From an uncultured Poribacteria bacterium (GTDB lineage Bacteria > Poribacteria > WGA-4E > WGA-3G), in the NCBI GenBank assembly GCA_951828515.1, contig OX639992.1:5744217-5808216 (forward strand): DNA of 64,000 nucleotides. The letters are read 5' to 3'. The position numbers and the translations under genes were made by a program. Positions 31,217 to 36,694 of the stretch are shown in pieces. A model generated the notes under the pieces. It did no database searches. It saw nothing but the letters and a program-made list of their open reading frames with translations, and was not told where the DNA came from. Each line of letters opens with the position of its first letter. The stretch's first letter is position 1.

Positions 31217-32245
31217 ATGCAAACACCAATGACGGGACGTGAACGGGTGCTCGCCGCGCTCCGCAATGAACCGACCGATCGTACCCCTGTCTGCAACCCG
31301 ACTTCCGTCGCTACGGTCGAACTGATGGATTTCGTTGATGCCCCTTTTCCACAAGCGAATCGGGAACCGGAACTCATGGCGCGACTCGCTGCTACCGGAT
31401 ACACCGAACTCGGTTTCGATACCATCATGCCCGTTTTCACGATTATCCAAGAATCGAGTGCCCTCGGCTGTAAAATTCAGTGGGAGCAGAAGGACAACTG
31501 GCCTACGGTTAGAATGCGCGAACCGATCTGGGAAGATGTTGACGATATCGTGATACCCGATGACTTTTTGACACATCCAGATACCCAGTGCGTTCTGGAA
31601 GCGATCAAAATCCTGAAGAAAGAATACGGCGACGAAATCGCTGTCATCGGGAAAACGATGGGACCCTGGTCGCTCGGCTACCACTGTTTCGGGGTTGAAC
31701 CTTTCCTGTTGCTCTCACTTGACGATCCGGGTAAAACGAAACTCGCCCTCGATCGGATGAAGGAAGCCACAGTGCAATTTGGTATCGCACAAATCGAGGC
31801 GGGTGCCGATGCGCTTACGCTCCCGGACCACGCTACAGGCGATCTCGTCAGTGGTGAATACTATCAACGTTACCTTCGGGACCTCCACATCGAATTCGTT
31901 GAACGTATCCCTATCCCCTTAATCCTGCATATCTGTGGGCGTACTGTTGATAGAATGGAGTACATCGCACAAACCGGCATGTCTGCCTTCCATTACGACT
32001 CCAAAAACGAACCGCAGGAATCCATGGACATTGTTCAGGAGCGCATTGCCCTCGTCGGTAATATCAATAATCCTGAGACCCTGTTTTCTAAAGAACCGGA
32101 AGACGTCAAAGCAGAGGTCATAAAAAACCTTGAGGCGGGAGTGCCCCTCATCGGACCGGAGTGCGCGATCCCACTTCAAACGACAATTGAGAATCTGCAA
32201 GCGATTCCCGAAGCCGTCCAAGAATGGCACAGCGCACAAGGATAA
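31217..32245 (+). CDS. Uroporphyrinogen-decarboxylase-fold methyltransferase, MtaA/CmuA type
   Basis: 342 aa. It starts MTGRERVLAALRNEPTDRTP after four residues, the classic opening of the URO-D superfamily. Zinc ligands of the MtaA/MtbA/CmuA methylcobamide:thiol methyltransferases appear as His238-x-Cys240 (LILHICG) and Cys316 (GPECAIP). The spacing agrees with the H-x-C-(n)-C motif of that group, and heme-type HemE lacks it. A role in corrinoid-dependent methyl transfer is therefore inferred. No corrinoid protein is next to it. Weak ribosome binding site (AGAGGAAACTG). It is followed by the selenoprotein candidates. Confidence 0.82.
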   Translation: MQTPMTGRERVLAALRNEPTDRTPVCNPTSVATVELMDFVDAPFPQANREPELMARLAATGYTELGFDTIMPVFTIIQESSALGCKIQWEQKDNWPTVRMREPIWEDVDDIVIPDDFLTHPDTQCVLEAIKILKKEYGDEIAVIGKTMGPWSLGYHCFGVEPFLLLSLDDPGKTKLALDRMKEATVQFGIAQIEAGADALTLPDHATGDLVSGEYYQRYLRDLHIEFVERIPIPLILHICGRTVDRMEYIAQTGMSAFHYDSKNEPQESMDIVQERIALVGNINNPETLFSKEPEDVKAEVIKNLEAGVPLIGPECAIPLQTTIENLQAIPEAVQEWHSAQG

Positions 32246-32264: not shown

Positions 32265-32873
32265 ATGAAAGAAATCACCCTTTTACTGCTAACAATCTGT
32301 TTTATCATAACCAATTTAACGATAGGCTACACACAAGAGACGGACCTTGAACACCTCCAGGCGTCCGATGTCAATGCCGATGGAACAGTAAACATTCTTG
32401 ATCTAACACTCGTAGCGGTAAACTTCGGCACGACACCCACTGCTGATCAGACCTTTAACATAGATGTCAACGGGGATGGCACCGTCAATATCCTCGATTT
32501 GACACTCGTCGCGAGTCATTTCGGTAGCAGGTCCGGCATCCCGTTTGAAGTCACCGATGCAACATTTGACGCTATTGTCTTGGGTTCTGAACTGCCTATT
32601 GTGGTAGAATTTAAAGACGATACCTGACCCTTCTGCATACTGATGAGACCGGTGGTCGCAGAAGTCGCATTAGAATATCGAGATGTCTTCAGTTTCGTCA
32701 AGTTGGATGTAAATACGCAACCGGAGAAAACAGCTAAATACCACATTCGCGGAACACCCACTTATATCGTATTCAGAGACGGAGAGATTGTTCAAGGTTT
32801 CGTCGGGGCAATGCCCAAGGCTGAATTGGTACAACGAATCTTTGGAACCTTAGGGATTGATGAAACCGAATAA
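32265..32873 (+). CDS. Secreted dockerin-thioredoxin fusion with in-frame UGA (candidate selenoprotein 1)
   Basis: 202 aa if TGA 32625-32627 is read through (residue 121). Layout: signal peptide (1-24), a dockerin-like pair of Ca-binding repeats (DVNADGTVNILDLTL and DVNGDGTVNILDLTL, about 36-85), then a thioredoxin fold. Around the TGA it reads VVEFKDDT-[TGA]-PFC-ILMRPVVAEVALEY. The TGA stands exactly at the first Cys of the thioredoxin CxxC. Downstream, the frame stays open for 81 codons with thioredoxin features including the cis-Pro (RGTPTYIVF). A hairpin follows the TGA. If TGA is a true stop, only a dockerin stub of 120 aa is made. The paralogue at 32997 has the same arrangement. Confidence 0.8.
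32630..32664 (+). promoter_or_regulatory. Candidate bacterial SECIS hairpin, gene 1
   Basis: Lower stem CTTCTGC (32630-32636) with GCAGAAG (32658-32664), a 10-nt bulge on the 5' side only, and upper stem GACC/GGTC (32647-32650, 32654-32657) with triloop GGT. The apical loop begins 23 nt after the TGA and has a leading G, as bacterial SECIS elements require. Folding was done by eye. Confidence 0.55.
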
Positions 32874-32996: not shown

Positions 32997-34601
32997 ATGA
33001 AGAAAATCACCTTTTTATTTTTAATGACCTGTTTGATTCTCACTAACTTAACCGTAGGCTATACGCAAGATGCGGATCTCGACGCTTTGAGCGCATCCGA
33101 TGTCAATGCCGACGGAGTGGTAAACATCCTCGATCTGACACTCGTCGCCTCGCACTTTGGCACGACCCCCACCGCAGATCAGACCCTTAACATAGATGTC
33201 AACGGGGATGGCATTGTCAATATCCTCGATTTAACATTCGTCGCAAGTCAGTTGGGCAAAACAGTCCACTCCCCTGTAATGTTCGTTCGCGCGAACCCAG
33301 CAGTCCAATCGGAAATTGCTGTTGACGATACCATCAGACTCACTTTTGATAACATGCCAGCCGACGTTACTGTGAGCACAGGCACTGCGAGAACTACTGA
33401 CAAGACTGTGACAATCATGGGTCCCTTCGACCCAGGCGCACTCGCCTTGACCGTCACTTGGACAGATGGAAGCCAAACACTCAATTATACCATCAGACCC
33501 CCTGTGGCGTTTGTTAGTGCGAATCCAGCAGTCCAATCGCGACTCACTGTTGACGATACCATCACACTCACCTTTGACAACCTACCAGAGGCAGTTACTG
33601 TAAGCACAGGTACTGCTACGATCGCTGACAAGACTGTAACAATCACAGGTCCCTTCGACCCAGGGGCACTTGCACTGACCGTCACTTGGACAGATGGGAG
33701 CCAGACGCTCAATTATACTATCAGACCCCCTGCCGCCTTCGTTCGCGCGAATCCAGCAGTCCGATCGAAAATTGCTGTTGACGATACTATCACATTCACT
33801 TTTGACAACCCACCAGAGGATGTTACAGTGAGTACAGGAACAGCGAGAACCATTGGCGAACGGGTGCGAATCACGGGTCCCTTCGACCCAGGCACACTCG
33901 CCTTGACCGTCACTTGGGCGGATGGGAGCCAGACGCTCACTTACACCGTCCTCGCACCAGATACCGAGGCACCCGCAATTACCAGCGGAAGCGTCAATGA
34001 CGGTGACAAGGACGTTGACCCGGAAGCATTTAACCTCAGTGGGAGGATCGAAGTTGAATTCAGCGAAGAGGTAACCGGTAACATCACACTACAAACCGTA
34101 GCGGGTGTTGACGCGGGGTGGCTCGGTAAAGTTGAAGGCAAGAAAGGGACACTTGAACTCGTCAGAGGCAAAGAACTCGACAACGAAATAACATACATTA
34201 TTACGGGGAAAGTCAGTGATGCTGCGGGCAATTCAGCCGACATCAACGTTCGGTTCGCCACTGCCAGTAAAACCTTTGATACTCTTTTTGAAGTCACCGA
34301 TGCGACGTTTAATAGTCTTGTGCTCGGATCAGAAATTCCCATTGTGGTTGAGTTTTATACGGATTGGTGACCGTCGTGTAAAAAGATGGCGCCAGTTGTC
34401 GCCGAAGTTGCTTTAGAGTACCAGAATACATTCGCTGTCGCAAGGTTGAACAATGATGAGAATCGACAAACAATCCAAAAATATCGGATTATAGGACAAC
34501 CTATTTATATCGTGTTCAAAGATGGAAAGATAGTTGGACGTTTCGCAAGAGCGATGCCGAAAGCCCAGTTCATCCGTAATGTTCTCAATGCGATAAATTA
34601 A
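32997..34601 (+). CDS. Secreted dockerin/Ig-like/thioredoxin fusion with in-frame UGA (candidate selenoprotein 2)
   Basis: 534 aa if TGA 34368-34370 is decoded (residue 458). Layout: signal peptide (1-24), dockerin-like pair (about 36-83), three 76-residue repeats (each with VDDTI, VTVSTGTA and TVTWTDGSQTL or TVTWADGSQTL), a Big_5-like domain from about 321 (SGRIEVEFSEEVTGNI), then thioredoxin. The active site reads VEFYTDW-[TGA]-PSC-KKMAPVVAEV, so the TGA replaces the first Cys of WCxxC. The cis-Pro is at IIGQPIYIVF. The frame after the TGA runs 76 codons to TAA. It is 123 bp downstream of its paralogue and followed by a terminator. Confidence 0.8.
34388..34403 (+). promoter_or_regulatory. 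Candidate bacterial SECIS hairpin, gene 2
   Basis: GGCG (34388-34391) pairs with CGCC (34400-34403). After a C/U mismatch a C-G pair closes an AGTT loop, which begins 23 nt after the TGA, the same distance as in gene 1. The G is the second loop base. It is smaller than the gene 1 structure and folded by eye. Confidence 0.45.
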
Positions 34602-34777: not shown

Positions 34778-36694
34778 TCACAGGCTACTCCGATGGTAGA
34801 ACCACCACTCCAACAAGAGGAGCAGGAACGCCGAAAGTGCAAACCAACGCCATATCTCCTGCACCATCGGTTGCAATCCGCCTTCCATCTCCAGCGGAAC
34901 TTCGGGAACTGACGCTGTTGAGGAATGCGACAGTGCTGATGCCGTAGCGTTCAGCAAATTGACCGTGAACCGCTCAAGCGACACACCATCCGCAAAAAGG
35001 GTGTAGACCCCAACCTGATCCGTTTGGGTGTATATCGAGTTCTCCAATCCAACCGTCGTTTCATCAGGTTTCTGCACGTGAAGCGTGCGTCCCTGGCGTG
35101 TCATTGCAACTCTCACCTGTTCTCCAGTTCGGAAGGCATGCCGGGTTCCGCCTTCTTGAGACTGGAGCGGCTGCAATGGGGCAGTTCCCGCTTCAAACCA
35201 TGCTAAACACTGATATATAAATTGCGGTCCATCGGGGACAGTCAGCGCAAAGGTAGAGATTTCAGGATTAAACGCATCAAACTCGAAAACAAGGAGTCTG
35301 ATATCCGCTCTGCTACCGATCCATATCAATGACCCGTTCTCCGTCTCAACAAGCGAGTGTCCCCAGAGAGGCAACACTCGGTGCGTAGACTCGCTTACCT
35401 GTAACCCCTGCAGCGATACACTCTCCATGAGCGGGTGATTCCCGTCCTCCTTGATAACGCGCACAGATGCCGTCTCCGTTTCGATAATCGGAGCATCCTC
35501 TTGAATGAAGGGCAGGTTGTTACCCGGTGCGATGAAGACCAGATGAGATCCAGAGGTCGCCTCAGACCTTCCATATAATGTAGGGGGTCCGAAAGCCTCG
35601 CGTCCGGCGAGTGTGCCACCATCGAAAATTGCGACATCCGCATCGCCAATGCCGTGATAATCCACTGGGTCCACCACATCCAGTTTCACATGATCTCCAT
35701 AAGATTCCAAAAGATCGGGTAGCAACGATTTCTGATTGTCCCTCACAAGCAGGATTCGCAGTGGGGGAATTGCAGATAGGAGTGCCCAAGCACTGTTATC
35801 AAGCTGAAAGTCGTCATCTATATCAAGGTGTGCACTGAGCACTTTTCCCTCTAAACCGCTCGGATCACCGGAAAACAGCACCGATTTGGTTTCACTCGGA
35901 GAAATAGACACCGTTCTATCATCGAGAGGCACACCCTCCACCGCCAATTGAACGTCCAGTTCCCTCGGTGTATCCGTAAAATTTTGAATGCCGATGAGGA
36001 CCTCATAATGCTCCTCTAACATCTCAACGCTGAACCGAACGATACCGATATTCTCTGCACTCCCACCGACGCCGACTTCCTGCACCGGCAGCGATATATC
36101 GGGTAGGTTTTCAAACGTTCCACTGATAAAGACAATCTTGTTCTGCGGCGAATCCGCATAGCGTGTTGCGGTATCGAAGACAGGACGTAAATTACGTGGG
36201 GCATGGGTCTGAGTGATGTTCTCTATTGCGTGATGGAGTTTCGAGGTATCCGTTGTAAAAACTTGTTGGATGTAGGTTTCAGGGGAGTTCGTCACCATGA
36301 GCATCATCCCACCGCTCGCGGAAACCCTTTCAATGTATTGCTGTGCTTCCTGTTTCGCGAGTGTGAGGCGTGTTTGTCCCATCTCTTTTGACGACATACT
36401 TGCGGAATTATCAACGATGAGAATTGCTTTGCCGGGCATAAATCCGGGTCTACGCAGCGCGGGGCGCGCGATGCTGCACACAAGGAGTAACAAAAACAGC
36501 ACCTGTAGCAGTGGGAGAAGTAGGTTGCGGATTCGTTGGAAAGGGACATCTGCTCTCCGGTCTTCGTCAGTGGAGAGCCAAAACATAATGCTGGAAACAA
36601 GGCGGGTGTGGCGACGTAATTTCAGAAAGTGAAGTGCCACCACTATTGGAATAACACCGAGCAGATAAAACGCGGCAGGGTTCAGGAATTGCAT
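34778..36694 (-). CDS. BatA-like membrane protein with von Willebrand factor A domain
   Basis: 638 aa. The N-terminal segment FLNPAAFYLLGVIPIVVALHFLKLRRH with a second membrane helix at about 57-77 is the BatA/aerotolerance N-terminal module. The VWA domain starts at about 90 with the metal site Asp95-x-Ser97-x-Ser99 (VDNSASMSS). It ends with a helix (FALSAFLLLLLEWWFYHR). Such proteins often stand with MoxR ATPases and DUF58 proteins, but those are not in this window. Role: envelope-associated, function uncertain. The gene has no same-strand neighbour close downstream. Confidence 0.88.
   Translation of the reverse strand: MQFLNPAAFYLLGVIPIVVALHFLKLRRHTRLVSSIMFWLSTDEDRRADVPFQRIRNLLLPLLQVLFLLLLVCSIARPALRRPGFMPGKAILIVDNSASMSSKEMGQTRLTLAKQEAQQYIERVSASGGMMLMVTNSPETYIQQVFTTDTSKLHHAIENITQTHAPRNLRPVFDTATRYADSPQNKIVFISGTFENLPDISLPVQEVGVGGSAENIGIVRFSVEMLEEHYEVLIGIQNFTDTPRELDVQLAVEGVPLDDRTVSISPSETKSVLFSGDPSGLEGKVLSAHLDIDDDFQLDNSAWALLSAIPPLRILLVRDNQKSLLPDLLESYGDHVKLDVVDPVDYHGIGDADVAIFDGGTLAGREAFGPPTLYGRSEATSGSHLVFIAPGNNLPFIQEDAPIIETETASVRVIKEDGNHPLMESVSLQGLQVSESTHRVLPLWGHSLVETENGSLIWIGSRADIRLLVFEFDAFNPEISTFALTVPDGPQFIYQCLAWFEAGTAPLQPLQSQEGGTRHAFRTGEQVRVAMTRQGRTLHVQKPDETTVGLENSIYTQTDQVGVYTLFADGVSLERFTVNLLNATASALSHSSTASVPEVPLEMEGGLQPMVQEIWRWFALSAFLLLLLEWWFYHRSSL

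Follow-up and report, generated by a model that had tools for sequence, protein, structure and literature searches.

Predicted selenocysteine-containing thioredoxins with dockerins, encoded by a tandem gene pair of an uncultured Poribacteria bacterium

Two adjacent genes of an uncultured Poribacteria bacterium, here called A and B, very probably encode thioredoxins in which selenocysteine (Sec), specified by an in-frame TGA, takes the place of the first active-site cysteine (UxxC). Judging from sequence comparisons, we put the probability of this reading at 0.94 to 0.95 for the two genes. They lie in a stretch of 64,000 nucleotides of contig OX639992.1 (positions 5,744,217 to 5,808,216, forward strand), which is called the window and whose numbering is used below; the host genome comprises 5.85 Mb in one contig. 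In the proposed mechanism, SelB and tRNA-Sec would insert selenocysteine at the UGA of both tandem genes. Decoding would be directed by a SECIS hairpin within the coding sequence, with its apical loop starting 23 nt after the UGA, and the product would be a thioredoxin with Sec at the first active-site cysteine. An earlier note on this DNA had proposed TGA as the Sec codon of both genes, and the selenocysteine machinery of the genome and the constraint on the RNA just after the TGA lend that proposal further support.

Architecture of the two genes and location of their products

With the TGA read as a residue, the 534-residue frame of gene B is unbroken and terminates at TAA. The features of both genes are collected in Table 1. 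The matches of A and B to PF00085 reach 69.4 and 76.3 bits against a curated cut-off of 23.5, and those to PF00404 reach 47.8 and 45.9 bits against a curated cut-off of 22.9; the thioredoxin equivalog TIGR01068 (NCBIfam) gives 65.8 and 73.7 bits, below its cut-off of 96.8. The N-terminus of gene A is, by eye, also hydrophobic and basic, and residues 2-21 of B form a helix in the AlphaFold2 model. This model represents the Ig-like domains well and the thioredoxin part poorly (block pLDDT 33-69 from residue 431), and therefore it was not used for the active site of B. Foldseek TM-scores to the B query did not exceed 0.26 among the best 50 rows.

Table 1. Positions of genes A and B and their features in the window
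Feature	Position	Strand	Remarks
Gene A: dockerin and predicted UxxC thioredoxin	32265..32873	+	202 residues, single in-frame TGA
Type I dockerin, A (residues 34-84)	32364..32516	+	PF00404, E 1.7e-12
Thioredoxin domain, A (residues 95-192)	32547..32840	+	PF00085, E 2.9e-19
TGA, codon 121 of A (predicted Sec)	32625..32627	+	first-Cys column of thioredoxin WCxxC
SECIS hairpin (proposed), A	32644..32660	+	loop GGU starts 23 nt after TGA; one A-G stem mismatch
Gene B: dockerin, Ig-like repeats and predicted UxxC thioredoxin	32997..34601	+	534 residues, single in-frame TGA
Hydrophobic, basic N-terminus of B, signal-peptide-like	32997..33068	+	by eye in translation and orthologues
Type I dockerin, B (residues 34-86)	33096..33254	+	PF00404, E 6.5e-12
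Three Ig-like repeats, B (about residues 96-318)	33282..33950	+	pLDDT about 82-95; best Foldseek matches are multi-Ig proteins
Thioredoxin domain, B (residues 431-528)	34287..34580	+	PF00085, E 2e-21
TGA, codon 458 of B (predicted Sec)	34368..34370	+	aligns with the first cysteine in 15 Cys homologues
SECIS hairpin (proposed), B	34388..34403	+	loop AGUU starts 23 nt after TGA

The hydrophobic N-terminus would export the products of A and B, and we regard their export as probable. The dockerin could then dock both proteins to cohesin-bearing proteins of the same cell, a step that we propose tentatively. Alternatively, the Sec thioredoxins may be undocked, either periplasmic or free outside the cell, with the dockerin acting as a folding, calcium-binding or self-association module; to this arrangement we give an even chance. 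It fits the many dockerin-like stretches of poribacterial genomes, which hold up to at least 54 matches to gene A per genome, thioredoxins included. Against it stand the retention of the dockerin in both genes and 14 cohesin matches over the Pfam cut-off in the same genome, which suggest that Poribacteria may have a cohesin-dockerin system at the cell surface. Most of these 14 places lie in frames of more than 1300 codons.

If A and B are docked, the Ig-like repeats of B may hold its redox domain further out, and outside the cytoplasm both proteins might reduce or exchange disulfides or handle oxidants. The fullest form of this idea is a surface-docked selenium redox module, in which exported selenothioredoxins on a sponge symbiont, A near the scaffold and B out on its Ig-like repeats, would constitute an extracellular disulfide or oxidant apparatus; we consider it rather unlikely. 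Should it be true, low selenium would lead to termination at the UGA and leave bare docking modules.

The TGA codon and the means of decoding it

The earlier note had read DW-TGA-PSC of gene B as the W-C-x-x-C site of thioredoxin and had placed the TGA of both paralogues at the same active-site codon. The alignment bears this out: in B (EFYTDW-U-PSCKKM) the TGA replaces the first cysteine of WCxxC, and in A (EFKDDT-U-PFCILM) it stands in the same column. The two thioredoxins, said to differ at about half their residues, share 34 of 76 residues after the TGA, and both genes have the undamaged frame claimed for them, each being one frame with a single TGA.

The fetched loci gave 178 domain matches, of which 112 were distinct and 111 remained after removal of one that has no residue in the Sec column. 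By the author's motif patterns, these 111 thioredoxin stretches were assigned to groups of 40 A, 40 B, 16 C and 15 Cys homologues. Group C is a third TGA-bearing thioredoxin set, found in relatives (16 distinct sequences) and not seen in the genome of A and B. Shortened rows were left out of some counts, so that B comprises 37 sequences in the dN/dS analysis and the tree, 35 in the recoding test and 38 in the synonymous count. The first-Cys column holds TGA in 96 stretches, at least two of which (the second matches of L024 and L031) repeat other rows in shortened form, and Cys in 15; a cysteine follows three residues past the TGA in 96/96 (UxxC). With these counts the shared TGA column is beyond chance. 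The residue preceding the TGA is variable (T, F, S, R or Y in A; G, W or N in B). Short group C thioredoxins (UGFC or UGAC) share a stretch with a longer Cys homologue (CPFC) in L177, L181, L182, L187, L188 and L189.

Among the matches listed, a manual count found an A-type gene with one in-frame TGA in 34 of the 36 genomes of the genus, including that of the window (two of these matches, in G014 and G030, are partial). The exceptions are G006, which has A only in fragments, and G027, with none among the matches listed. A second TGA-bearing copy, of B type or near it, was counted manually among the matches listed in 35/36; G033 has no B-type copy among those matches or in the 4 kb surrounding its A gene (L174). 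Beyond the genus, matches to gene A were weaker, and the rows listed were without a stop or had an internal TAA. The good matches to the thioredoxin part among the 80 named gene A loci all come from Candidatus Poribacteria bins (L051-L067). A plasmid search with query P0002 returned 623 records, all below 60% identity, the best five being four annotated thioredoxins and one unannotated record.

The genome of A and B was searched for SelA, SelB, SelD and tRNA-Sec, and all four are present: SelA at 594.3 bits, SelB at 347.5 bits, SelD at 359.4 bits and tRNA-Sec at 78.1 bits, with anticodon TCA and 182 nt after selB. In the same genome, selD has an in-frame TGA of its own (KCAG-U-ASK, L134:1531-1533), at codon 17 if the start is as read by the author. 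The tRNA-Sec model RF01852 rings in genomes of all kinds, with sub-cut-off matches throughout and matches in 14/14 controls, five of them over the cut-off, and therefore only matches over the Rfam cut-off were used. By this measure, tRNA-Sec is present in 54 of 60 genomes, including that of the window, and by manual count in 32 of the 36 genomes of the genus. G024, G030, G033 and G034 had no tRNA-Sec over the cut-off, also in a repeat search. selB is over the cut-off in three of these four and absent at that level from G034. In G024 and G033, selB heads to a contig end (92 nt and 464 nt away, with only the first part of selB matched in G033), so that the tRNA-Sec gene would fall off the contig. 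In G030, the tRNA-Sec that follows selB (from L197:3459-3532 on) is preserved from its 5' end as far as the T-loop, beyond which its 3' part has given way to unrelated sequence. ARAGORN found no tRNA at this post-selB locus, yet A and B of G030 keep their TGA; the damage is either a misassembly or a real loss.

The strongest constraint on the RNA was observed in gene B, in which synonymous identity at codons +7 to +11 is 1.000 in 38 sequences, compared to 0.636 from codon +17 on and a codon-usage expectation of 0.271. The corresponding values near the TGA and downstream are 0.694 and 0.559 in A, and 0.665 and 0.638 in C. Pairing was counted over all 37 distinct B and all 34 distinct A stretches. 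The B hairpin, GGNG-N-C-AGUU-G-U-CNCC, is paired in 184/185 cells. Its pair 23-34, the one variable pair on which the compensation rests and one in which related sequences share events, is C-G in 22 sequences, U-G in eight, U-A in four and A-U in two and is unpaired once; 36/37 paired was reached by 0/10000 shuffles. These changes fall at codon positions 1 and 2 and alter amino acids, and thus protein constraint does not explain them. The constraint on the B hairpin and its compensating changes are as expected of a bacterial SECIS, and together they clearly document, from natural sequences, selection on such an element within a coding sequence. In A, the GGU-loop hairpin is found in 23 of the 34 sequences (144/161 cells paired, two pairs changed on both sides), and the other 11 have a shifted hairpin, CUGU-GGUC-ACAG (43/44 cells paired).

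Published limits for bacterial SECIS elements are a loop of 3-9 nt with G in loop positions 1-2, a spacing of 16-37 nt, a stem of 4-16 bp and a folding energy of -7.5 kcal/mol or lower. Both window copies lie within them, B with its AGUU loop, 23-nt spacing and a fold of -7.8, and A with its GGU loop, the same spacing and a best hairpin fold of -12.9. The unconstrained optimum in A is another fold at -13.2, better by 0.3 kcal/mol. The general rule was passed by 36/38 A, 34/38 B and 15/15 C sequences, and also by 7/15 Cys homologues and by 27/40 (A) and 17/38 (B) stretches taken 120 nt downstream; as a lone test it is too lax. Compared to synonymous recodings, nucleotides 19-39 fold more stably in A (mean Z -1.44) and B (-1.45) but not in the Cys homologues (0.03), with 0.05 reached singly by only 14/34 A and 7/35 B sequences and the sign in B weak in 30-nt windows. 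Group C has no energy excess at nucleotides 19-39 (mean Z +0.70, 0/15) and a weaker stability sign at nucleotides 4-33 (Z -1.26). In L063, an A-type gene with Cys, the fold at nucleotides 19-39 is lost (0.0 versus -5.0 and -6.0 kcal/mol in the window copies). The Rfam model SECIS_1 matched neither A and B nor any of 14 controls and is uninformative here; an Rfam scan of the window left every family below its cut-off.

A near-cognate or suppressor tRNA might instead read the TGA and insert Trp, Cys or another residue with no selenium involved. This is very improbable in a genome that has tRNA-Sec, selA, selB and selD, and for codons that are followed directly by constrained RNA. Furthermore, eight of the 38 other window frames of at least 250 codons (mechanical frames, with gene B's own excluded) end in TGA; the triplet has thus not simply become sense, and on this mechanical, uncurated count a reading of TGA as sense throughout was dismissed.

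Selection after the TGA and history of the pair

The earlier note had claimed constraint at the protein level after the TGA, and dN/dS is indeed well under 1 in both genes and their homologues. On a codon alignment from which the first 13 codons after the TGA were excluded, and for pairs with 0.1<dS<1.5, the median dN/dS is 0.151 in A (406/780 pairs), 0.356 in B (534/666) and 0.219 in C (81/120), and no such pair in A, B or C reaches 1. Pooled over disjoint sister pairs, which were chosen by hand from the tree, pN/pS is 0.202 in A (16 pairs, p 1.1e-48) and 0.367 in B (13 pairs, p 2.9e-16). The part of B after the TGA is constrained, but less so than that of A. A dN/dS run without codon alignment (B median 0.407, maximum 1.277) was set aside because its length variants were unaligned.

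These values bear on the possibility that the TGA is a true stop, in which case the products would be a dockerin (A) and a dockerin-Ig protein (B) and the thioredoxin part would be a relic, or else that it reflects a sequencing or assembly error. Gene callers do end both frames at the TGA, and the weaker constraint on B would be in keeping with a relic. However, the TGA is kept in tens of independently assembled genomes (for A, the 34/36 counted manually), and in the A, B and C rows that are 200 nt or longer the frame stays open for at least 76 codons past it. With dN/dS well below 1 over that part, a true stop or an error is scarcely credible. A relic thioredoxin part was rejected on this purifying selection, and the judgment of the earlier note that a sequencing error or a fresh nonsense mutation was unlikely holds on the comparative data.

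A single recent gene conversion between A and B might also have given rise to both TGAs, as the earlier note had considered. Neither the tree nor identities within and between genomes give any sign of this in the thioredoxin parts. In a thioredoxin tree of 108 rows and 106 columns, obtained by a short search and unresolved at many forks, a branch with SH-aLRT 89 separates the 40 A rows from all others, and two changes are required for B; L151 and L172 (assigned to B) and L065 lie outside the main B clade. At 25 tandem loci, the A-B identity of the thioredoxin part is 0.463 within genomes versus 0.461 between them, and the B of the same genome is the nearest B to A at only one of the 25. The dockerins are somewhat closer within genomes than between (0.667 versus 0.603 at the 25 loci), and thus some N-terminal exchange is possible. 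The lineages of A and B parted long ago, the hairpins of the two differ in register and loop, and a recent conversion of the thioredoxin part is therefore rejected.

The pair occupies a conserved slot, with a URO-D-family gene near it in 10 of 17 loci and a convergent gene (window 34778-36694) in 14 of 17, although some of these loci reach only one side. A precedes B in the window and follows it in L056. Two loci have a single gene in the slot and both neighbors, L063 (A-like, Cys) and L065 (B-like, TGA), and duplication within the slot is the simplest reading of the origin of the pair. The lone A-like gene of L063 (3353-4060) has TGC in place of TGA. The URO-D-family neighbor (window 31217-32245) is 93-98% identical in 10 loci, where A and B diverge far more.

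Relation to known systems

Standard ORF calling stops A and B at the TGA and loses their catalytic half. If the proposed reading is true, a dockerin-tagged and apparently exported form joins the UxxC thioredoxins, and extracytoplasmic selenium chemistry is indicated for a sponge symbiont that has not been cultivated. In the open-licence literature, nothing was found that joins Poribacteria with selenoproteins and thioredoxins, that deals with dockerins of Poribacteria, or that joins bacterial selenoproteins with sponge symbionts. Poribacteria and selenocysteine do occur together in PMC5649159 and PMC9999580, and selenoproteins together with dockerins in one paper.

In cohesin-dockerin systems of the cellulosome type, the cargo of the dockerin is a carbohydrate-active enzyme. 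A and B resemble these systems in having a type I dockerin, with cohesins in the same genome, and differ from them in that the predicted cargo is a selenothioredoxin.

As to selenium, an excerpt of PMC5649159 states that SelA and SelB co-occurred in most sponge-symbiont bins. Sec thioredoxins with UxxC (Trx, PF00085) and Trx-like UxxC selenoproteins are established in marine metagenomes (PMC13188914, Table 1; PMC2398784, Table 2). A and B share with the marine proteins of these tables the thioredoxin domain and the replacement of the first cysteine by Sec, which is predicted here. They differ in their type I dockerin, their signal-peptide-like N-terminus, the Ig-like repeats of B and their occurrence as old tandem paralogues. 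Marine selenoprotein fusions, like A and B, join a Trx-fold selenoprotein domain to an extra domain (PMC2398784), but those in the available portion of that source are Prx, Prx-like and UGSC proteins, and that portion makes no mention of dockerins. Since UxxC Sec thioredoxins are already known, the apparent novelty lies in the architecture, which combines a hydrophobic N-terminus, a type I dockerin and a predicted UxxC thioredoxin, with Ig-like spacers between the latter two in B, in a genome that also has cohesins.
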